From Desulfovibrio sp. (GTDB taxonomy: Bacteria; Desulfobacterota; Desulfovibrionia; Desulfovibrionales; Desulfovibrionaceae): a stretch of 32,418 nucleotides of DNA. Location of the stretch: assembly GCA_017454325.1 (NCBI GenBank), contig JAFTDG010000094.1, positions 1 through 32,418 of the forward strand, written 5' to 3'. Below, one piece after another: positions 3,242 through 16,065 of this stretch; the first letter of the stretch is position 1, and the number at the start of each line of letters is the position of its first letter. Under the pieces are notes generated by a model. That model was given only the letters and a program-made list of their open reading frames with translations, made no database searches and was not told the origin of the DNA. Both the position numbers and the translations under genes were made by a program.

Positions 3242-6200
3242 TACGCTTCCTCGCTCATGGCATCGGTCACGGCACGCTGCAAATCTTCTTCCGGTATTGC
3301 TGACAGCGCATCGACCACATGCTGGTCAAAACCGCTATTCTGCCTGAGCAGGGCTATAGCCTGCGATGACGGCATGCCTGCCCGGTATGCCCTGGCACTT
3401 ACCATGGCGCAGTAGGCATTGACCACTGCCAAGGCGCGCGCATTGGGCGTTATTTCTTCTCCCTGGAGATGCCGTGGCTGCCCAGTGCCATCCATGCGTT
3501 CGCCCATCTGGTAAACAGCTTCCGGCACTGGCAGGCTGAACTGCATGTCACGCAGAATATTATACGCGTATTCCGGAGCGCGATTGACCTCGCTCTGTTC
3601 CTCGGCAGTCAGACTCCCCTTCTTTGTCAGCAATTCTCTGGGCACAAATATCTTACCCACCTGTGAAAGCCTGGCAGCAAAACGCAGAGTTTCTCTATCC
3701 TTATCAGGCAGATTCATAGACGCAGCCAGCAGGTTTGCCACCTTCTCCATTTTGAGGGAATGCCCGACCAGATTGGTATCAACGCTTTCAATGGCACGTA
3801 CCAGGGCAGCCATACTATTGGCTTGCCGCTGGCGGGCAGCCTCTGCACGGCGACGGAATTCCGTAATATCCTGGAAAATGCCTACGCAACCGCTTGGGCC
3901 TTCTGCCTGTGCAGCATTTTTTTCTTCAAAGGGGAAGAGCGATACGCGGTATAAACGTGTTTCCTCATGCTGTGGTACGGATATTTCAAGACTGCCCTCA
4001 TTCCCCTCGGCATCCACACGCTTCATGCCTGCTACCAACGCACCTGCTGCCTGTGCCGGCAACACCGCATCAACAGGCTTACCTATGATGCTCTCTTCCG
4101 TTGTACCTGCCAATAGGGCAAAAGCGGGGTTGCACATCTGCACAAGGCCTTCGCCATCCATAAGCATAAGCCCGGCCTGCAGGGAGGCGTTGATACTGTC
4201 GAGCAATGCTTTCTGGCGACGGGCCACTTCTGCACGACGACGGAACTCTGTGATGTCCTGGAAAATGCCTACGCAGCCGCCACGTACCGAAACGCCCGTC
4301 TGGTCTGACCTTTTTTCTTCGAAGGGAAAGAGCGTCACGCGGTACAGACGTGTGCCACCTGTGCCGGGCACGGATACCTCCAGGCTGCTTTCACGCCCAC
4401 CTGTGCTGATCTGCTCCATGCCAGCAAGAAGACTGTTGGCCGCCTGCTCGGGCAGGATAGAAGCAATGTGTCTGCCCACAATGGCCGTTTCTGCCCTTTC
4501 TGCCATGTTCCCAAAGGCTGGGTTGCACATCTGTACGCAGCCCTCGCCATCCATAAGCATAAGCCCGGCCTGCAGGGATGCATTGACACTGTCGAGTAGG
4601 GCTTTCTGCCTGCGGGCCACTTCCGCACGGCGACGGAATTCCGTAATATCCTGGAAAATCCCCACACAGCCGCCGCGTACAGGGGCGTCGGCCTGGTCCG
4701 CCTTCTTCTCCTCGAAAGGAAAAAGACTCACACGGTACAAACGCGTATCATCTTCACGCGGGACGGAAATTTCAAGACTGCTTTCACGTCCACCGGAACG
4801 AAGGTCCTCCATGCCAGATAAAAGTGTATTGCCTGCAGCAGCAGGCAGCAGTGAGGTAATGGCCGTACCAATAATATCGGTATCTGCCCTGCCTGCCATC
4901 TGGCCAAAGGCGGGGTTGCACATCTGCACAAGGCCATCTGCATCCATAAGCATGAGCCCGGCCTGCAGAGAAGCGTTGACACTGTCGAGCAGAGCTTTCT
5001 GCCTGCGGGCCACTTCCGCACGGCGACGGAATTCCGTAATATCCTGAAAAATCCCCACACAGCCGCCATGGACAGATGCTTCGGACTGCCCGTCCTGCCT
5101 TTCTTCAAAGGGAAAGAGTGTCACGCGGTACAAATGCATGTTCCCCCCGCGCGGCACGGATATTTCCAGGCTGCACTCGCTTCTGCTTGCATCAAACTGC
5201 TGCATGCTTGCACGCAGCTTTCGAGCGGCCTCTGCGGGCAGCACTGTGTCAATATCCGCTCCCTGAACAGCATCTTCAGGGGCATCCGCAAGCTGCACAA
5301 AAGCAGGATTGCACATCTGCACCTGGCCTGTTCCATCCATAAGCATGAGCCCGGCCTGCAGAGAAGAATTAACGCTGTCAAGAAGCATCTTTTGCCGTCG
5401 GATGAGCTTGTACAACCGTTGGAAACGAAGGGCTGTGGCCCGGTGTGACCGGCTCACCAGCGATGCCCAGATAAATGCCAGCAGCAGGGCCGCACCGAGG
5501 CTTCCGAGTATGCCCAAACCGTAAATTTGTCGGGCTTGTCCCTGAACCAGTTCTTCAACAATGGCAGCAGGGGCTTCTATGGATACAAGCCACCCAAGGC
5601 CTGTCAGGCGATTACCCAACGAATAGGTATCTCCTTCGCCCACCAGAGCCTTTCTACGTTTGAAAGGTAAACTGCCGACAGTATTCTCCAGGTGGGCAGA
5701 TTCCACAGACAGCTCTCCATCACGCTGGACAATGGCTTCCCATCCGGTGGTACCGTACTGTAAAATAGCTGGCAGCAAGTCCTTATGCTCCTGCCTCAGA
5801 GAAAGGATATTGGTCAGGGCTTTATCCATGGGAACAATGGCCAGCAGCGCCGCAACAGGGGCATTGTCACCTCGGCCCAGAACCTCGAACATGGGATCAG
5901 CCACACACAGAACAGGGACATTATCACGCATGCGTACAGTCCCATAGGCAGTTGCTTTTGTGCGCATGGCCTCGCCAACAAGGGCAATATCCTCATCGGA
6001 AAGGCGGGCATCCCCCTTGGGTGCAAGCAATGGCAAACCATCATGGGTAACGATGCGTGCAGAGACCCACCCCTTGCTGTGGATGAAATCCTGCAGCAGA
6101 TCCTGCATATAGCGCATCTGTTCAGCAAGAGAGACAATGGCCTCATCAGAACTCTGGGTGGCATCCGGAGCTGTAAGACGCTGTAGCCCATCACGACCGA

Positions 6201-6501
6201 GGCTGCGTACATCCATGGCAAAAAGGCGGAAAATTTCCGCACTGCTTACGAGCCGCAGCTGATCTGTAAGACCGGTATTCCAGGCATGAATAGCATCCAG
6301 AGCTTTATCTACCCACGATTGCTGCAGCTCGCGCTGAGCATTTTCGATATCCTGCGTAACATTTTTCAACTGCAGCGTACAAAGGCCATACGCCACTGCT
6401 GCAGCTACGATGAGCAGGCACAATCCCACCGAAAAGACAGCGGCCTTTTTCAAGCGATAGCGCCCCACATCTGCACGCTCATTCGGTTCCTGCATATCCA
6501 T
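3241..6501 (-). CDS. Membrane receptor with four PAS repeats and degenerate HD-GYP domain
   Basis: About 1086 residues. A membrane helix lies near residues 18-42, then a periplasmic region of about 280 residues (Cache-like by position and length), a second helix (GILGSLGAALLLAFIWASL), then four PAS units of 129-131 residues separated by RAEVARRQKALLDS linkers. The last 195 residues are an HD-GYP domain whose signature is broken: the expected LHDIGK reads LSQVGK, the HHER motif reads QMGER, and DGTGYP reads DGTGQP. The metal-binding residues are therefore largely lost and phosphodiesterase activity is unlikely; c-di-GMP sensing without hydrolysis is the natural inference. The gene starts 11 bases after the LapG-like protease gene. 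ATG at 6501 was chosen with AGGA upstream; an in-frame TTG at 6510 is possible. LapD in pseudomonads does the equivalent job with degenerate GGDEF/EAL domains. Confidence 0.88.
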   Translation of the reverse strand: MDMQEPNERADVGRYRLKKAAVFSVGLCLLIVAAAVAYGLCTLQLKNVTQDIENAQRELQQSWVDKALDAIHAWNTGLTDQLRLVSSAEIFRLFAMDVRSLGRDGLQRLTAPDATQSSDEAIVSLAEQMRYMQDLLQDFIHSKGWVSARIVTHDGLPLLAPKGDARLSDEDIALVGEAMRTKATAYGTVRMRDNVPVLCVADPMFEVLGRGDNAPVAALLAIVPMDKALTNILSLRQEHKDLLPAILQYGTTGWEAIVQRDGELSVESAHLENTVGSLPFKRRKALVGEGDTYSLGNRLTGLGWLVSIEAPAAIVEELVQGQARQIYGLGILGSLGAALLLAFIWASLVSRSHRATALRFQRLYKLIRRQKMLLDSVNSSLQAGLMLMDGTGQVQMCNPAFVQLADAPEDAVQGADIDTVLPAEAARKLRASMQQFDASRSECSLEISVPRGGNMHLYRVTLFPFEERQDGQSEASVHGGCVGIFQDITEFRRRAEVARRQKALLDSVNASLQAGLMLMDADGLVQMCNPAFGQMAGRADTDIIGTAITSLLPAAAGNTLLSGMEDLRSGGRESSLEISVPREDDTRLYRVSLFPFEEKKADQADAPVRGGCVGIFQDITEFRRRAEVARRQKALLDSVNASLQAGLMLMDGEGCVQMCNPAFGNMAERAETAIVGRHIASILPEQAANSLLAGMEQISTGGRESSLEVSVPGTGGTRLYRVTLFPFEEKRSDQTGVSVRGGCVGIFQDITEFRRRAEVARRQKALLDSINASLQAGLMLMDGEGLVQMCNPAFALLAGTTEESIIGKPVDAVLPAQAAGALVAGMKRVDAEGNEGSLEISVPQHEETRLYRVSLFPFEEKNAAQAEGPSGCVGIFQDITEFRRRAEAARQRQANSMAALVRAIESVDTNLVGHSLKMEKVANLLAASMNLPDKDRETLRFAARLSQVGKIFVPRELLTKKGSLTAEEQSEVNRAPEYAYNILRDMQFSLPVPEAVYQMGERMDGTGQPRHLQGEEITPNARALAVVNAYCAMVSARAYRAGMPSSQAIALLRQNSGFDQHVVDALSAIPEEDLQRAVTDAMSEEA
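3840..5400 (-). repeat. Four tandem PAS-encoding DNA repeats (about 390 bp each)
   Basis: The same landmark (a sequence like CCGTAATATCCTG on the plus strand) recurs ending at 3873, 4260, 4653 and 5046, giving periods of 387, 393 and 393 bases. Long blocks, especially around the CATAAGC-CCGGCCTGCAG segment and the RRRAEVARRQKALLDS linker, are almost identical between copies, including at synonymous positions. Each unit encodes one PAS domain with the phrase SLQAGLMLMD. The reading frame is intact through all copies. Confidence 0.9.
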
Positions 6502-6512
6502 ATGTACCAATC

Positions 6513-7418
6513 CTACTTGATTTTACGGCCTTTCAGATGGGCCCATCGGCAGAACTCATTCACGGAATACTGTGGCATATACTGACGCAGACGTGAATGG
6601 GACAGCACGGCATTACTCAAATTGTCAAGTATGTAGGCGTCACCGTTATCATAGACGGCGAGCACGGCATGGGCAAAATTACGAACAGTATCCCTGACGA
6701 CCACAATACGCATATTCTCGGGTGGTATCCCCAATTCCTTGAGGGTGAAATACTTAATAATGCTGTAGTCTTCACAATCACCGGATTTTTTTAGGAACTC
6801 ATCCGGAATAGCCCAATAATCCTGCTGATGCCAGTTGACGATATCTTCCTTGTACGGCCATGTATTCCAAAAAGCATTGACATAGCGCAAACGCTCCATA
6901 AGGCCCTTGGGAGCCTTGGATTTGAAGCTACTCCAGGTGACATCGCGTTTGAAAACCTTGGTAGGCACAAAAATGGAAGATTGGCCATTACGTTTGAGCA
7001 GATCCAGCCATGCAGGCAGTGAGGCAAGAGGACGTTTGAACTCAACCGTACCGAAGAGCTGCACCTTATTGCCCTGTGCCGGTGCAGGAGCCGCTGCAGA
7101 TTGATTGGGCGCTGTATCCTTCGCCAAACCTTCATGGGAATTATCCGCATTGACTACTGCGGCTTCCACAGGTGGTACATCAGCGCCGGTGGCTGGTGCA
7201 GGTGCCCTTTGCTCCTTGCTGTCAGCTGTAGGGGAATGCTCAGGTGAAGAAGCCTCAATGCCAGTTCGTGACGTATCCTCTTCTTTTGCCCAGGCTGGTG
7301 AAAGCGCCCAAAAGCCAGCAATATGGCAGACCATGAGTGCTGTCATGGCATAGAAGGATGCTATGCTGGACAAAAGTGGCATTTTTTTAAGCATAGGCTT
7401 CTTATGACAGGATTTCAT
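6513..7418 (-). CDS. lapG: LapG-family periplasmic cysteine protease (BTLCP)
   Basis: Up to 301 residues: an N-terminal hydrophobic signal segment ending near AWAKEE (residue 44), a low-complexity Ala/Pro linker (about 45-118), then a bacterial transglutaminase-like cysteine proteinase domain. The catalytic triad is readable: Cys215 in SGDCEDYS, His250 in NFAHAVL and Asp265 in YILDNL. LapG enzymes cleave the N-terminus of giant RTX-type adhesins and release biofilm cells unless sequestered by an inner-membrane c-di-GMP receptor. The downstream gene encodes a receptor-like protein with a degenerate HD-GYP domain. No adhesin or type I secretion genes are in the window. The start is uncertain: Met1 (7418), Met9 (7394) and Met13 (7382) are all possible, and the terminator of the upstream gene lies only a few bases before Met1. 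Confidence 0.9.
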   Translation of the reverse strand: MKSCHKKPMLKKMPLLSSIASFYAMTALMVCHIAGFWALSPAWAKEEDTSRTGIEASSPEHSPTADSKEQRAPAPATGADVPPVEAAVVNADNSHEGLAKDTAPNQSAAAPAPAQGNKVQLFGTVEFKRPLASLPAWLDLLKRNGQSSIFVPTKVFKRDVTWSSFKSKAPKGLMERLRYVNAFWNTWPYKEDIVNWHQQDYWAIPDEFLKKSGDCEDYSIIKYFTLKELGIPPENMRIVVVRDTVRNFAHAVLAVYDNGDAYILDNLSNAVLSHSRLRQYMPQYSVNEFCRWAHLKGRKIK

Positions 7419-7424
7419 AAGGGA

Positions 7425-7448
7425 ATAAAAAAGCCGCGTAATGCGGCC
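7425..7448 (-). terminator. Rho-independent terminator after the 7476-7898 gene
   Basis: On the minus strand the stem GCCGC-ATTAC-GCGGC is followed directly by a run of six T. It lies 28 bases beyond the stop of the small hypothetical gene and just ahead of the lapG start, so it should separate the two transcripts. Confidence 0.85.
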
Positions 7449-7475
7449 ATGATATACGAAGTTTAGAGAAATAAA

Positions 7476-7898
7476 TCAATAGGCCTTAATGTAGTCGTCC
7501 AGATTTTCTGCAGAACAGTTCCTACTCACCCAAAAAGCAGAAGCCCATACCATAAGCGCGGTTGCCTGTGTGTCATCCAGTGTTTTGATTTTGGATTCCA
7601 AGCTCGATTTGCTTGCTCCATGACGAAGGTGGACATTATTTATGTCACACGCATCCGTCACACACAGCAATAAATACGAAAGCCGTGTATGATCGGGCAT
7701 AAGTTTCATATCCTTATGCGCTTCAACAATTGTTTTCAGCTCGGATGCGCTGAATATTTGCTTGATACTCGTGATTGCTCGAAAAAACGTATCAACGGCC
7801 CATGGAAGTATGAATTCCGCACCGGCACTTTTGGTACGAAAATAATCTTTCAGCCAGCGCTCTTGTTCTTCATTGATACGTGCTGCAACCTGTGGCAT
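7476..7898 (-). CDS. Hypothetical protein, possible N-terminal ribbon-helix-helix
   Basis: A 140-residue soluble protein that I do not recognise as a named family. Its start (MPQVAARINEEQERWLKDY) looks like the strand and first helix of a ribbon-helix-helix DNA-binding fold. The rest is predicted helical, with cysteines in LLCVTDACD and NCSAEN. The start at 7898 was chosen over an upstream in-frame ATG (7931) because the sequence becomes protein-like there and a G-rich stretch precedes it. It forms its own transcription unit ending at a strong terminator, divergent from cobT. A regulator of the neighbouring operon is possible, but nothing in the sequence shows it. Confidence 0.7.
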   Translation of the reverse strand: MPQVAARINEEQERWLKDYFRTKSAGAEFILPWAVDTFFRAITSIKQIFSASELKTIVEAHKDMKLMPDHTRLSYLLLCVTDACDINNVHLRHGASKSSLESKIKTLDDTQATALMVWASAFWVSRNCSAENLDDYIKAY

Positions 7899-8071
7899 GG
7901 TGCCCCCAGTACAAAATACTATCCGGCACATTCCATGCCGAAGTAAGGTTTATGCAATTTTTGCAAATGGATACACTACCCCATGAAAAATTTCAAGAAA
8001 AAATCTAGACTTTTTTTCTTAAAAATTACCATTCCCTGACTGGCTCAGCCGCACAGCTCCGACTTGCATAT

Positions 8072-9202
8072 ATGGGTAAGACAGGATACAAAAATACAAT
8101 GAATGCGACTGGCGTTACCTTAATGGAAGCTCTTTTTCCCACACTGCATATCGCTCCTTTACACCATAAATATCTGCATGCGGCACAAGCGCACCTCGAC
8201 AACTTAACCAAACCTCGTGGCAGTCTGGGGCGTCTTGAGGTCCTAGCTTCACGTCTGTATGCCATGGCTGAAGGGCGCACACCTCTGAACGTATCCCCCT
8301 CCATCATGCTTACTGTGGCTGGCGATCATGGCGTGGCTGCACAGCATGTTTCGCCGTATCCACAGGCGGTTACACGTCAGATGGTACAGAATTTTCTTCA
8401 TGAGGGTGCCGCCATCAATGCCTTATGCCGTGTTTCTGGCATGGATCTCCGCATTGTGGATGCTGGCTGCTGCGGTGGCCCTTTTCCCCACAACCCTATG
8501 CTCATCGACCGTCGTCTTGGCAACGGTACTGCCGACTTGAGCCAGGAAGCTGCCATGAGTCGTGCCACATGTCTGGCCGGCCTTCATGCAGGAATACAGC
8601 TGGCTCAGGAGTTGGCTGACGAAGGCTACCGCTGCATCGGTACGGGAGAAATGGGCATAGCCAACAGCACTTCGGCCACAGCACTGTACTGTGCACTCCT
8701 GGCCCAAGACCCGGCAGCCATGACCGGCCCTGGGGCCGGTGCAGACACAGCAATGCTGCGCCACAAAATTGCAGTAGTGCAGCGTGCATTAGCTGTTCAT
8801 GCCAGCGCGCTCAATGGTGACGTTATAGACATACTTGCTGCTTTGGGTGGTTTTGAAATCGTCATGATGGCCGGTATCATGCTGGGCGCTGCATCCCGAC
8901 GAATACCAGTACTTGTGGATGGCTTTATTTGCAGTGCTGCCTTTGTGGCGGCTCTTACTCTTTGCCCGGCCCTGGAAGGATATGCCATACTGGCTCATGC
9001 TTCTGCTGAGCCCGGGCACAGACGGGCCCTGGAAACCCTTCACTGCAACAGGGAATCGGCTACCCCGCTGCTGCATCTTGGCATGCGCCTTGGCGAAGGA
9101 ACTGGCTGTGCTGTTGCTTACCATCTGCTGCGCTGCTCGGCAGCCATCTTTAACGACATGGCCACTTTCATTTCCGCCGGAGTGGCAGATACATCATGCT
9201 AA
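8072..9202 (+). CDS. cobT: Nicotinate-nucleotide--dimethylbenzimidazole phosphoribosyltransferase
   Basis: Up to 376 residues. CobT transfers the phosphoribosyl group of nicotinate mononucleotide to dimethylbenzimidazole or another base, making the alpha-ribazole phosphate of the cobalamin lower ligand. Family marks are LTKPRGSLGRLE near the N-terminus, TVAGDHGV, GTGEMGIANST, TGPGAGAD and, near the C-terminus, MRLGEGTGCA, which contains the catalytic glutamate. Characterised CobT proteins are about 350 residues. The start is therefore uncertain: ATG at 8072, 8099 or 8123 all lack a clear ribosome binding site, and the last gives the most typical length. No cobalamin riboswitch is visible upstream. 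The 3' end overlaps the next gene by 7 bases. Confidence 0.95.
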   Translation: MGKTGYKNTMNATGVTLMEALFPTLHIAPLHHKYLHAAQAHLDNLTKPRGSLGRLEVLASRLYAMAEGRTPLNVSPSIMLTVAGDHGVAAQHVSPYPQAVTRQMVQNFLHEGAAINALCRVSGMDLRIVDAGCCGGPFPHNPMLIDRRLGNGTADLSQEAAMSRATCLAGLHAGIQLAQELADEGYRCIGTGEMGIANSTSATALYCALLAQDPAAMTGPGAGADTAMLRHKIAVVQRALAVHASALNGDVIDILAALGGFEIVMMAGIMLGAASRRIPVLVDGFICSAAFVAALTLCPALEGYAILAHASAEPGHRRALETLHCNRESATPLLHLGMRLGEGTGCAVAYHLLRCSAAIFNDMATFISAGVADTSC

Positions 9203-10200
9203 CCATATCCGATGCAAGCGAGAAGCGCATAAGCCAAGGCACCGATGCGCATGGCCAGCCTTCGCCTCTTTTACAGCTTGAGCATGTTTCTCAAAAATTT
9301 TTCACGCAGAGCCTCTGGAGAAAAAGAAAAACGCTGCTTGCGGTTAATGACGTTAGCATGTTCATAACCCATGGGGAAACAGTCGGGCTTGTGGGCGAAT
9401 CCGGATGTGGCAAATCCACCCTAGGGCGGCTCGCCTGCGGCTTATTGCAACCGTCTGAAGGGCATATTCTTCTGGATGGGCGTCCCTTGCCGCCGGCCGG
9501 GGCCCACAGCTGGGCTACCGGACGTATTCAAATGATCTTTCAGGATCCCGTTTCTTCGCTCAATCCAAGGCTGTGTGTACGTTCCTCCATAGCGGAACCA
9601 CTGGCAGCCAAACACGTTGGCCGTGTTGAAAGAAACAATATGGCTGATGCAATCCTGAGCGAAGTAGGCCTTGACGGACTTGGGAGCCGTTATCCTCACG
9701 AATTTTCCGGCGGTCAGCGTCAGCGCATTGCTATAGCCCGTGCCCTCATTACGCGACCGGACCTGGTCATTTGTGACGAGCCGGTTTCGGCGTTGGATGC
9801 CTCAATACAAGCACAAACGCTTAATCTGTTGCGCTCAGTACAAGAGCGTTTTGGCCCCGCCTACTTGTTTATTTCTCACGATTTGGCTGTAGTGGGTTTC
9901 CTGTGCAAAAGAATTATCGTCATGTATTTGGGAAGCATTGTTGAAGAAGGCTCCACGGAGCAGATTTTTACAACTTCCGCGCATCCCTATACCCAGGCAT
10001 TGCTGGCTGCCATTCCCAGCGGAGACGAGACAACGGAATATGCCCCCCCCCGGGAAGGAGAACTCCCTAATCCGCTTTCCCCTCCCACGGGCTGCCATTT
10101 TCACCCTCGCTGCCCGCATGCGCATGCTATCTGTCGTAGCGAGCCACCCACATGGAAGACTCTTGCCCCTGGCCACAGGGTACGCTGCTGGCTCGTGTAG
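9196..10200 (+). CDS. Oligopeptide/nickel-type ABC transporter ATP-binding protein (DppF/OppF-like)
   Basis: 334 residues with a complete ABC ATPase: Walker A GESGCGKST (67-75), Q-loop IFQDP, signature FSGGQRQR, Walker B VICDEP and H-loop ISHDL. The C-terminal segment CHFHPRCPHAHAIC is the oligopeptide-transporter extension seen in DppD/DppF, OppD/OppF and NikD/NikE. The substrate cannot be told from the ATPase. It is an orphan here: no permease, partner ATPase or binding protein is in the window, and the upstream neighbour is cobT, with which it overlaps by 7 bases. Nickel, cobalt or peptide uptake are all possible; pairing with cobT makes a metal or corrinoid link attractive but unproven. 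Its stop lies 7 bases from the end of the convergent pigment cluster, with no terminator between. Confidence 0.92.
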   Translation: MLTISDASEKRISQGTDAHGQPSPLLQLEHVSQKFFTQSLWRKRKTLLAVNDVSMFITHGETVGLVGESGCGKSTLGRLACGLLQPSEGHILLDGRPLPPAGAHSWATGRIQMIFQDPVSSLNPRLCVRSSIAEPLAAKHVGRVERNNMADAILSEVGLDGLGSRYPHEFSGGQRQRIAIARALITRPDLVICDEPVSALDASIQAQTLNLLRSVQERFGPAYLFISHDLAVVGFLCKRIIVMYLGSIVEEGSTEQIFTTSAHPYTQALLAAIPSGDETTEYAPPREGELPNPLSPPTGCHFHPRCPHAHAICRSEPPTWKTLAPGHRVRCWLV

Positions 10201-10207
10201 CAAGCAT

Positions 10208-11422
10208 TCACCAGTCTCTGGGTTTACCCACAGAGCTGCGGGGGATATCCGCACCAAAGTCATATTTTCCCGGCCGTTCTTCGTCACGCAACTGTGAGCG
10301 GGCGAAACGGATTAAGGATGCACGCAATTCCTCAGGGTCAGCATTTGCCTCGGGAACGACAAAAGCCTTCAACCTGAAGCCTTCCTCAACACGCATGAGC
10401 CGTACAGCGCAACTGTGTACACCGTCACAACGTTCAAGAACTTTGGCCACATGCTGGGGGTACACGTTAATACCACCCACCTGAACCGCTTTGTCGATGC
10501 GTGCTCCTGGTCGCAAATGACGATCATCCAGCCAGGTGACGGTATCCATCAGAGGATACTGACGCAGACCATCATCCGGCAAAAGGCGTTCCAGTGTGCC
10601 ACGCCCATTTCCCCTTCCCCGCCGAACATGGGGCAGTAACTCAAAGGGAGCATCCGGATGCTTTCGGTAACAAAATGCCCCGACTTCTGAAGAACCAAAT
10701 ATCTCAATAACACAAAAACCGTAATGCAACAGAGTTTGCAGTACTTCAGACGGCGTAGGGGAAGTCGCCGTAAAAACAGTGATGTCTGTCCCCCGTTTCT
10801 CTGCTCCGCATACCCAGTGTTGCAACGTCACGAATCTGCTCCATATAAGCGGAATGCTGATAACCATGTCTCCGGGGCGCATCTGCGCGGCAACTGCTGT
10901 CGGCAGTAAGGGCACAGTACGAAAAGGAATTCCCAGGCTTAACGGCAGCAAGAGTCCAAAGGTAAATCCATACATATGGTGCAGCGGTGCAGAAACCAAC
11001 GCTGCCGTTCTGTCTTCCACAAGCGGAGCAACACTGGTGATCTCCTGGCGCAAATGGCTTTCCCTGTGAGTGCAGGGTTTAGGCACTCCCGTTGTTCCAG
11101 AAGTAAAAAATGTGACAAGACGTTCCCCACACTCCCATTGTGCAAGTGCGGCCTTGGCAAGTTCACCACATGTTTCGTCTATGCGCGGCACAGGTACTTC
11201 CGTGTGGAACATGGTGTTGACCTGTTGCGTCACGTTTTCCACAGCTTCACGATCCAGCCCCAATGCTTCCCATCGCGATCTGCCAAATTCCTGTGTTGCA
11301 TGCGTGTCAGAAAAACATAACGACGTACGGCGCTGGATGACTGCCCGCGTCATGGACTGCACAATAGCTGTAAAAGCACAGAGCCCGAGATGCGGTATCC
11401 TCTCCAGTGGCCATGATTTCAT
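10208..11422 (-). CDS. Acyl-ACP/acyl-CoA synthetase of the aryl polyene cluster (ApeH-like)
   Basis: 404 residues of the adenylate-forming (ANL) superfamily. The P-loop FTSGTTGVPKP, the A5-like motif IFGSSEVGA, the hinge region RPGARIDKAVQVGG and the C-terminal catalytic lysine in SSVGKPRDW are all present. It is short for the family (usually 450-550), so the N-terminal subdomain is reduced. In aryl polyene clusters this enzyme is thought to activate the aromatic starter acid or a fatty acyl group and load it on an ACP. The start at 11422 forms an ATGA overlap with the stop of the preceding gene, preferred over the in-frame ATG 54 bases upstream. It is the last gene of the minus-strand cluster. 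Confidence 0.88.
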   Translation of the reverse strand: MKSWPLERIPHLGLCAFTAIVQSMTRAVIQRRTSLCFSDTHATQEFGRSRWEALGLDREAVENVTQQVNTMFHTEVPVPRIDETCGELAKAALAQWECGERLVTFFTSGTTGVPKPCTHRESHLRQEITSVAPLVEDRTAALVSAPLHHMYGFTFGLLLPLSLGIPFRTVPLLPTAVAAQMRPGDMVISIPLIWSRFVTLQHWVCGAEKRGTDITVFTATSPTPSEVLQTLLHYGFCVIEIFGSSEVGAFCYRKHPDAPFELLPHVRRGRGNGRGTLERLLPDDGLRQYPLMDTVTWLDDRHLRPGARIDKAVQVGGINVYPQHVAKVLERCDGVHSCAVRLMRVEEGFRLKAFVVPEANADPEELRASLIRFARSQLRDEERPGKYDFGADIPRSSVGKPRDW

Positions 11423-13539: not shown

Positions 13540-13812
13540 TCAATTACCTGTCTGGCGTGAAAGAATGAAATCCGCCAAACCACGTATAGATGTAAATGCC
13601 TGTCGCGCTTCTTCAGCGTCAGCTATGGCGACGCCAAATTCCTTCTCAACAATGACAACAAGCTCGACAGCATCCAAAGAATCAAGCATCAAGCCCTTCT
13701 CTGTATCAAAAAGCGGAAGGTCAGAATCAATATCCTCCGGAGTAATGTCATCCAATCGCAAACCAGTAATAATAAGTGTTTTTAAGGAATTTTCTATGTC
13801 ATTTTTGGTCAT
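13540..13812 (-). CDS. Acyl carrier protein 1 of the aryl polyene cluster
   Basis: 90 residues, acidic and helical. The phosphopantetheine attachment serine is Ser45 in the motif LDSLDAVEL. It would carry the growing polyene or the starter unit. It is preceded by an AT-rich 72-base gap that follows the AT-rich hydrolase-like gene, and ends seven bases before the ketosynthase start. The ribosome binding site is weak (TAGGT). A second ACP is encoded at 23243, matching the two-ACP layout (ApeE/ApeF) of known aryl polyene clusters. Confidence 0.93.
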   Translation of the reverse strand: MTKNDIENSLKTLIITGLRLDDITPEDIDSDLPLFDTEKGLMLDSLDAVELVVIVEKEFGVAIADAEEARQAFTSIRGLADFILSRQTGN

Positions 13813-13831
13813 GTTTATACCTACATGTGTT

Positions 13832-13860
13832 ATTATATTGATAAGATAATCATGTATAAG
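13832..13860 (-). promoter_or_regulatory. Possible internal promoter before ACP 1
   Basis: The AT-rich gap holds a perfect TATAAT on the minus strand (13832-13837), about 20 bases before the ACP ATG. The -35 region at the right spacing (TTATAC or CTTATA) matches poorly. It could restart transcription after the AT-rich gene, but base composition alone may produce the match. Confidence 0.3.
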
Positions 13861-13884
13861 TTTTGCAATACTTCAAAAAATGTT

Positions 13885-15135
13885 CTATTTGCTGTAATAC
13901 CTTGATAATTCTGTGAGATAGGAGTTAAACAACAATGTAGCGTCACTATTGTCTATTCTACCATCAAGGAACATATCTGCGACCTTGCAAAATGACTCCA
14001 TTGGCTGCGCAAGATGAGGATTTGTACTGTCTATGGCTGCAAGGTAAATAAATAAGTTATTTGTTATTGCATTAAAACCTAATGTCAGTTTTAAGCCCAT
14101 ATTCTTCTGTAGATACCGCATCTGTATGCAGTCCGAAGGGGAATATACGTTGGAAAATATGAATATTTTTGATTGAAGAACGTTTTCTTGCAACATTGGC
14201 AGCAGATTAAATTGAAATGTATCTCTTTTTGAATTTATATCGTCATATTGTGATGTTATACTAACTTTATTAAAAATTTTATTAAAATAATCAAGTTTAT
14301 TCTCAAATTTGTAATATTGAAATATAGAAATCTGTGGACACAGTGCTATACATTTTGAATATTTAAGTAAATATGATATATAAATAGATGCAAATGCACC
14401 ATTTGAGCTGCTTATAAATGTAATATTATTATATTCTATATTATGAATATCACATATTTTTTTTATAATATCAAAAAGTCCATTGACAACAGAATCATCA
14501 CGAGTTCCATAATAAAAACAAATTGCTTTTTGTGCAAAATTTATTTGACGTGAAGGATCATCAATATATAAGCAATATCCATCAAATACTGAACTATATG
14601 TCTTCCTCATAAAAGAAGGATATGCACGATGGATAGCATATGCTGAAAGAAATACATACAATCTTTTTTTAGTTGATGGTAAAAGGCAGCATTCATAAGT
14701 AAATGAATGGTGATGTATGCTGAGTCTGTTGTAATGGGCTGTTGTCAATTCCGATAATTGTATATGTTTTGTACTGGTATTAAAGGCTACATATATATTT
14801 AAGCGTTCTCGTGCTAAACTTCCTTCTGAAAGCTCCATTTCCAAAAATAATCCGTCCTCTGTAAGAAAAAACGGTGAAGACGCGTAGAGTTTTTCCTGAT
14901 TTCGGATAAAATGGAGAAGAGGATTTTCTTCGTAAAGTTGGATGTTACGTCCTTTGAGAAATTTCTTATAATTAGCGATACTAAATTTCTTGCTTGGATT
15001 CCTGCCCTCTTTTGCTCCAAATTCAAGAAAATGTTTTGCAGGGTCAACCTGTGCCCGAAGGACATCCTGATTATTTTCCAGGTAGTAACCAGCATCAAAC
15101 AGCGGAGAACTACCCAGTAGATCCATATCATTCAT
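13885..15135 (-). CDS. AT-rich alpha/beta-hydrolase-like protein with N-terminal polysaccharide-locus repeat domain
   Basis: 416 residues, cytoplasmic, no signal peptide. Residues 10-52 (LFDAGYYLENNQDV, then DPAKHFLEFGAKEGRNP) are a repeat often found in front of glycosyltransferases and other surface-polysaccharide proteins. The centre and C-terminus resemble an alpha/beta-hydrolase family of capsule and Asp2-like loci: a pattern like F-R-x-Y...YIDDP, a YYGTRDD strand end, and a nucleophile elbow ISSSNGAF with candidate Ser244. It may be an esterase or deacylase acting on a glycan or on the polyene conjugate; no substrate can be named. By eye its G+C is far below its neighbours (runs of AAT, ATA and TTA codons), and it is not a standard aryl polyene gene, so acquisition is likely. 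A ribosome binding site (AAGG) supports the start. Confidence 0.72.
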   Translation of the reverse strand: MNDMDLLGSSPLFDAGYYLENNQDVLRAQVDPAKHFLEFGAKEGRNPSKKFSIANYKKFLKGRNIQLYEENPLLHFIRNQEKLYASSPFFLTEDGLFLEMELSEGSLARERLNIYVAFNTSTKHIQLSELTTAHYNRLSIHHHSFTYECCLLPSTKKRLYVFLSAYAIHRAYPSFMRKTYSSVFDGYCLYIDDPSRQINFAQKAICFYYGTRDDSVVNGLFDIIKKICDIHNIEYNNITFISSSNGAFASIYISYLLKYSKCIALCPQISIFQYYKFENKLDYFNKIFNKVSITSQYDDINSKRDTFQFNLLPMLQENVLQSKIFIFSNVYSPSDCIQMRYLQKNMGLKLTLGFNAITNNLFIYLAAIDSTNPHLAQPMESFCKVADMFLDGRIDNSDATLLFNSYLTELSRYYSK

Positions 15136-15162
15136 AATAAACCTTGCGATTACGCCCTCTAT

Positions 15163-16065
15163 TTATACCCACATATCATAAAAATTAAAAAACTGATATG
15201 GATAATTCTTTACTACAGCTTCCATGGCCCTTGCAAAACGTACAGCGTAGGGTCGAAAGGCATCAGGTTCACGGTGTGACAAACCTCTTGGCACGTCAAT
15301 ATGTTCTACATGCCAAACGGTAGCAAGCCCCTTTTCACGGACAGTAAACAGCATAAGCAGGTCTGCTCCTGTCGAGGAAGCTAGTACATAGGCACTCATG
15401 GGCAGGCAGATCTCGCCGCCCAAAAAAGGGGTTTTGACACAGTGGTGCATGGGCGTATGGGCAGGCAGTCGGTCTCCCATAAGGCACACAATTTCACCCC
15501 GTTTAAGCGCTGCCGACGCCTCTACCAGTGAACCAACTGGGTCGGATGCATCAATAACATGAAAAGGTTTGCCCTTTCCTCTCTCGAAATAATGCTTGTC
15601 TGGATCCCCAGGGGTTTTCATTTGCACAATGTTTACTGGCGTATCAAATTGCTCCAAACCCGCAAGACCTGTCTGCCATGTACCGATGTGCGCAGAGAGG
15701 ATAATACAGCCTTTGGGATTTTTCCCGGCTTCAGACAGACAATGATATGCATACGGAGCCGTTGCATGTAATAAAAAATGGCCGGTAATACCAGCTACCA
15801 TACGATCCAGCAGGATATTGCCAAAGGTCCAGTACAGACGATAGACATTGATAATATTATGTAAGGGACCGGCGTCTGGAAAACGATGGGCAAGATACGC
15901 CGTACAGCGATGTCGAACTCGGGGCAGAAGTGTATAATACAAAACTACAAAAAACAGAACGAAACGCGCAAAAACAACTAGTCTGCACCGTACCATACAT
16001 TCAAAAAAAGCGTAGCGAAATTTAGAACCCAGATTACGCATTGTTTCCGGGTATTCAACTGTCAT
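15163..16065 (-). CDS. LpxL/HtrB-like lysophospholipid acyltransferase
   Basis: 300 residues with an N-terminal membrane helix (VFARFVLFFVVLYYTLL, about 30-46). The catalytic-type motif is ILSAHIGTWQTG, where typical LpxL enzymes have HxGNWE, so the acidic partner reads Gln. A later GDR (LMGDRLPAH) and the C-terminal YPYQFFNFYDMW also match the family. In aryl polyene clusters a member of this family, sometimes fused to a glycosyltransferase, is thought to transfer the polyene to a lipid or glycolipid anchor at the inner membrane. Here the glycosyltransferase is a separate gene overlapping by 11 bases. GGGAG eight bases upstream supports the start. Confidence 0.85.
   Translation of the reverse strand: MTVEYPETMRNLGSKFRYAFFECMVRCRLVVFARFVLFFVVLYYTLLPRVRHRCTAYLAHRFPDAGPLHNIINVYRLYWTFGNILLDRMVAGITGHFLLHATAPYAYHCLSEAGKNPKGCIILSAHIGTWQTGLAGLEQFDTPVNIVQMKTPGDPDKHYFERGKGKPFHVIDASDPVGSLVEASAALKRGEIVCLMGDRLPAHTPMHHCVKTPFLGGEICLPMSAYVLASSTGADLLMLFTVREKGLATVWHVEHIDVPRGLSHREPDAFRPYAVRFARAMEAVVKNYPYQFFNFYDMWV

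Follow-up and report, generated by a model that had tools for sequence, protein, structure and literature searches.

The window, that is, the whole stretch of DNA analysed here, is the complete contig G000:C38 of 32,418 bases, and genes at both of its ends may therefore be cut by the assembly. Since dsrA is present in the genome, the organism is probably a sulfite or sulfate reducer. According to the gene identifications, the minus strand at the centre of the window is taken up by an aryl polyene (APE) operon. It comprises a ligase, ketosynthases, an acyl carrier protein (ACP), a lysophospholipid acyltransferase, a glycosyltransferase, a thioesterase, a dehydratase, an RND exporter, a LolA-like protein and further ketosynthases. 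Between the acyltransferase and ACP genes lies, as the earlier note had observed, an open reading frame on the same strand as the operon. It starts with ATG and encodes 416 aa. The features of this region are as follows.

13540..13812, minus strand: acyl carrier protein gene, adjoining the acyltransferase gene in insert-free relatives (gene identification, locus comparison)
13813..13884, minus strand: AT-rich stretch leading to the ACP start; the sister species G247 has a longer one (sequence, sister comparison)
13885..15135, minus strand: AT-rich 416-aa gene, glycan-locus repeat domain plus divergent alpha/beta-hydrolase, CsaC/XcbB-like (ORF call, profiles, composition)
13966..14688, minus strand: hydrolase/acyltransferase core, residues 150-390 (family alignment, profile matches)
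14014..14016, minus strand: His374, predicted triad base (invariant in 14/14 family members)
14131..14133, minus strand: Asp335, probable acid of the triad (kept in all seven closest members)
14332..14334, minus strand: Gln268, 24 residues past the nucleophile as in CsaC, Gln138 (Gln in 13/14 family members)
14404..14406, minus strand: Ser244, predicted nucleophile; its elbow reads SSSNG where relatives have G-x-S-x-G (CsaC Ser114 in the alignment)
14881..15135, minus strand: N-terminal domain of two imperfect repeat units, residues 1-85, YYLENNQDV...HFLEFGAKEGRNPS (repeat matches in LPS/glycosyltransferase proteins)
15136..15162, minus strand: gap following the acyltransferase stop; its counterpart in the sister G247 measures 118 bp, ends recognisably shared (sequence, sister comparison)
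15163..16065, minus strand: lysophospholipid-type acyltransferase gene of the APE operon (gene identification, locus comparison)

The earlier note had described the base composition and codon use of this gene and its flanking gaps as sharply different from those of all neighbours. For the gene itself this is borne out. In a G+C plot of the window, positions 13601-15000 drop to 27-37% against about 50-55% on either side. The gene has a G+C content of 32.3% (GC3 25.7%), whereas the 14 neighbour genes measured range from 41.8% (ACP) and 46.4% (acyltransferase) up to 55.3%. Its codon use lies 0.196 nats per codon from the pooled window, and all other genes lie at 0.14 or below except the ACP gene (0.40), a tiny sample of 88 codons. 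For the gaps the description holds in part: the G+C dip is present, but it is partly normal, because the ACP gene, which is AT-richer than the remaining neighbours in the window, also has a lower G+C content than the acyltransferase and ketosynthase genes in most of the gene-free relatives measured. Several relatives of the inserted gene are likewise richer in AT than the DNA around them; the unusual composition is therefore a habit of the gene family. The ribosome binding site claimed earlier amounts to a short AAGG about 8 nt upstream of the ATG. In promoter and terminator scans the numbers of sites were just slightly above those of shuffled sequences.

The gene splits two genes that are otherwise kept together. 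Of 30 other APE loci in the family, from several genera, 28 have a gap of only -10 to +79 bp between acyltransferase and ACP, and the absence of the gene from these related clusters locates the insertion point. The remaining two loci are one without an adjoining ACP gene and one (in G224) with an unrelated 275-aa gene at the junction. The stop of the acyltransferase gene and the start of the ACP gene abut or overlap in the gene-free relatives (for example ...TGGTCGCAATGATGACAAAA...), and judging from these overlapping codons the insertion interrupted what looks like acyltransferase-ACP translational coupling. The 416-aa gene is present in 2 of the 32 APE loci examined and is thus not a core APE component. 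The same gene in the same place was looked for in distant APE clusters and not found; apart from the window it occurs at this junction only in the sister species G247.

At the G224 junction (L056) the unrelated gene occupies positions 9574-10401 in a 1.2-kb gap, which brings the gains of an extra gene at this junction to at least two within the family. Insertion by a mobile element was considered for the 416-aa gene and rejected: no direct repeats flank it within the window, no transposase or integrase is found among the identified neighbour genes, and the phage records searched gave no match.

In G247 the gene has the same place, strand and 416-aa length, and its product is 76% identical to that of the window (the acyltransferases of the two species are 89% identical). 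Both spacers differ in length between the two species, but their ends are recognisably common to both. The shared spacer ends, and the restriction of the gene at this junction to the sister, favour a single event, and one insertion in the common ancestor of the two species is the most likely history. Between the two species the gene has a dN/dS of 0.16 (0.09-0.30 in its neighbours), and therefore it is not decaying. Its dS of 0.81 exceeds that of the neighbours (0.18-0.64), and nucleotide divergence is highest over the gene, reaching 16-21% per 500 bases. This may be explained by faster synonymous change in AT-rich codons or by a later allelic replacement. Silenced foreign DNA on its way to decay could be suspected from the very low G+C content and the differing spacer lengths, but such a fate is highly improbable given this dN/dS and a reading frame that is unbroken and equally long in the two species. 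The glycan-type gene is a real, selected insertion in a conserved pigment operon, common to two sister species.

The two parts of the protein both have kin in surface-glycan loci. No Pfam family covers either the N-terminal repeat or the core. The repeat (residues 1-85) is found as tandem copies in large glycosyltransferase/LPS proteins from many proteobacteria, in agreement with the earlier assignment of this domain to surface-glycan proteins; the relatives returned by the related-locus search have this repeat alone in common with the window protein. For the core (about 150-390), relatives that are 16-34% identical over the whole alignment were found within the same genus and family. Their loci, with gene names read by eye, mostly contain glycosyltransferases, sugar dehydrogenases or other envelope-glycan genes, and these relatives presumably act on other surface glycans. 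In a tree of 14 family members, the window protein and that of G247 group with L041 and L081. Among 395 genomes across the phylum, a match at E <= 1e-8 was found only in the window genome and in G087, both of this genus. The window's own genome has no second copy of the gene.

Some family members are unusual. In L042 (8449-10539) and L080 (5536-7395) a left-handed-beta-helix acetyltransferase-like domain is fused to the core, after it in one protein and before it in the other. The L086 locus of G257 (4308-6671) has two divergent core relatives in tandem. The L079 member (7152-8174) has Asn at the expected position of the nucleophile Ser (GSNGGG) and is perhaps inactive.

Across the 14 family members, His374, Pro173, Arg177, Pro194 and Gly210 are invariant, and Ser244 and Gln268 are each kept in 13. 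The elbow of the window protein has Ser242 in place of the first Gly of the motif. In the close clade of the window protein, Asp335 and Gln338 are invariant (Asp335-x-x-Gln338), and distant family members have an Asp about 3 residues upstream, with a His after it. The earlier proposal of an alpha/beta-hydrolase-type core with Ser244 as the predicted nucleophile agrees with the conserved elbow and its alignment. A single-sequence AlphaFold model of the window protein had a mean pLDDT of 37, a confidence at which the fold is not interpretable.

Profile searches against the PDB provide the main clue regarding the function of the core. The full family profile matches SacC/CsaC, the capsule O-acetyltransferase of Neisseria meningitidis serogroup A (PDB 6YUO/6YUS), with E = 1.3e-4, and for a profile of the C-terminal half CsaC is essentially the sole meaningful match (E = 0.008). 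In CsaC the catalytic triad is Ser114, His228 and Asp198, and a fourth, unusual catalytic residue is Gln138, the Q138A mutant losing about 97% of activity (PMC7501274). In the C-terminal-half alignment, Ser244 corresponds to Ser114 and Gln268 to Gln138. In this weak sequence match Asp335 aligns with CsaC His201, three residues downstream of Asp198, and the alignment ends before His228, so that His374 is equivalent to it by order only. Arg148, which places the capsule acceptor in CsaC, has by residue count no Arg counterpart near residue 278, and the acceptor therefore probably differs from that of CsaC. Together with the shifted acid column, this points to a CsaC relative with a different acceptor, not an orthologue. 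A weak but specific match to the NCBIfam model of XcbB/CpsF (NF033892) was obtained for 6 of 7 family members; it is local around the elbow, covers about 77 of 291 positions and scores 21-22 bits, below the curated cut-off of 125.

Other PDB matches were discarded. TALE repeats topped the profile searches, but at about 4 bits per repeat over many repeats, and they vanish without the pre-elbow helix. Elbow profiles of alpha/beta-hydrolases (helix + GSSGG + helix) thus collect many tiny matches that are summed, which is a trap for automatic annotation. Matches to Asp2 and AntI were weak and limited to the elbow.

Taken together, these observations suggest that a glycan-locus gene entered the acyltransferase/ACP junction once, in the ancestor shared with G247, and was kept by selection. 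Its product most likely follows the CsaC mechanism: an acyl group, probably acetyl, would be taken from a thioester by Ser244 and handed on to a sugar hydroxyl, with His374 and an acid (Asp335) activating the serine and Gln268 helping to position it. The most speculative step is that the acceptor would be the sugar moiety of the very APE lipid that this operon produces. The insertion and its selection are close to certain, and the common active-site residues and the kinship with glycan loci are likewise observed; transfer in place of hydrolysis, acetyl-CoA as donor and a sugar as acceptor are what we infer. For the full statement, a single ancestral insertion kept by selection and encoding a CsaC-like sugar O-acyltransferase, we estimate a probability of about 0.45.

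The gene would then be a captured CsaC/XcbB-like sugar O-acyltransferase, its predicted substrate being possibly the APE glycolipid. The step to the APE lipid is based only on the location of the gene and on the published view that APE forms part of a larger glycolipid (PMC8253772); the open literature searched for a full structure of the APE lipid yielded none. That the operon captured a capsule-type acyltransferase which O-acylates the sugar of the polyene lipid, creating a new lineage-specific APE glycolipid, is accordingly put forward as a tentative idea with the odds against it. Nearly as likely is a role in another surface glycan. The enzyme could be an O-acyltransferase for LPS or capsule, to which the APE operon offers transcription only, and this too we regard as doubtful but worth considering: relatives lie mostly in glycan loci, none was found in other APE clusters except that of the sister, and the N-terminal repeat is typical of LPS and glycosyltransferase proteins. 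However, the position and strand in the operon have been kept in two species despite 0.2-0.4 synonymous changes per site in most APE genes, and the window's own genome has neither a second copy nor any other gene above the XcbB/CpsF cut-off.

The earlier note had suggested deacylation or transfer of the polyene to a surface glycan, and the present data favour a CsaC-type acyltransferase acting on a sugar over both. An esterase with the same fold, using water as acceptor and stripping the APE lipid or another glycolipid of its acyl groups, would fit the majority of alpha/beta-hydrolases, and CsaC itself slowly hydrolyses acetyl-CoA when acceptor is absent (PMC7501274). It is nevertheless unlikely, since nearly the whole family keeps the Gln at +24 on which efficient transfer by CsaC depends, and since relatives fused to an acetyltransferase-like domain exist. 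Release of the polyene from ACP to a glycan or to water is less probable still. The gene adjoins the ACP gene, and AntI, faintly matched at the elbow, is a polyketide-pathway hydrolase, but that match is absent with the C-terminal-half profile, the APE operon already has its own thioesterase and acyltransferases, and it does without the gene in all other species examined save G247.

If the preferred reading of a CsaC-like sugar O-acyltransferase is true, the enzyme would give a Gln-extended CsaC-like group a member that can be characterised. The authors of the CsaC study noted that Gln138 is also conserved in uncharacterised proteins (PMC7501274), and the present family, with its conserved Ser, Gln and His, joins that group. 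One selected insertion of a glycan-type acyltransferase also lends itself to a clean with/without comparison, in which the window species or G247 has the gene and close relatives such as G200 lack it; this bears on whether the sugar anchor of APE is modified.

CsaC and the window protein have in common an elbow of the G-x-S-x-G type, a Gln at +24 from the nucleophile with a Pro before it, a conserved His and kinship with glycan loci. In contrast to CsaC, the window protein has an extra N-terminal repeat domain, an acid shifted by about 3 residues and no retained Arg148; its gene lies within an APE operon, and the likeness is detectable by profile only. With XcbB/CpsF it shares the local elbow match, but this amounts to 21 bits with partial coverage. 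As for the operon, the ape cluster of E. coli CFT073 (PMC8253772) and that of the window share the ligase, ketosynthases, ACP, lysophospholipid acyltransferase, glycosyltransferase, thioesterase, dehydratase, LolA and RND exporter, whereas an alpha/beta-hydrolase gene of the window's kind does not appear in the part of the E. coli gene table considered.
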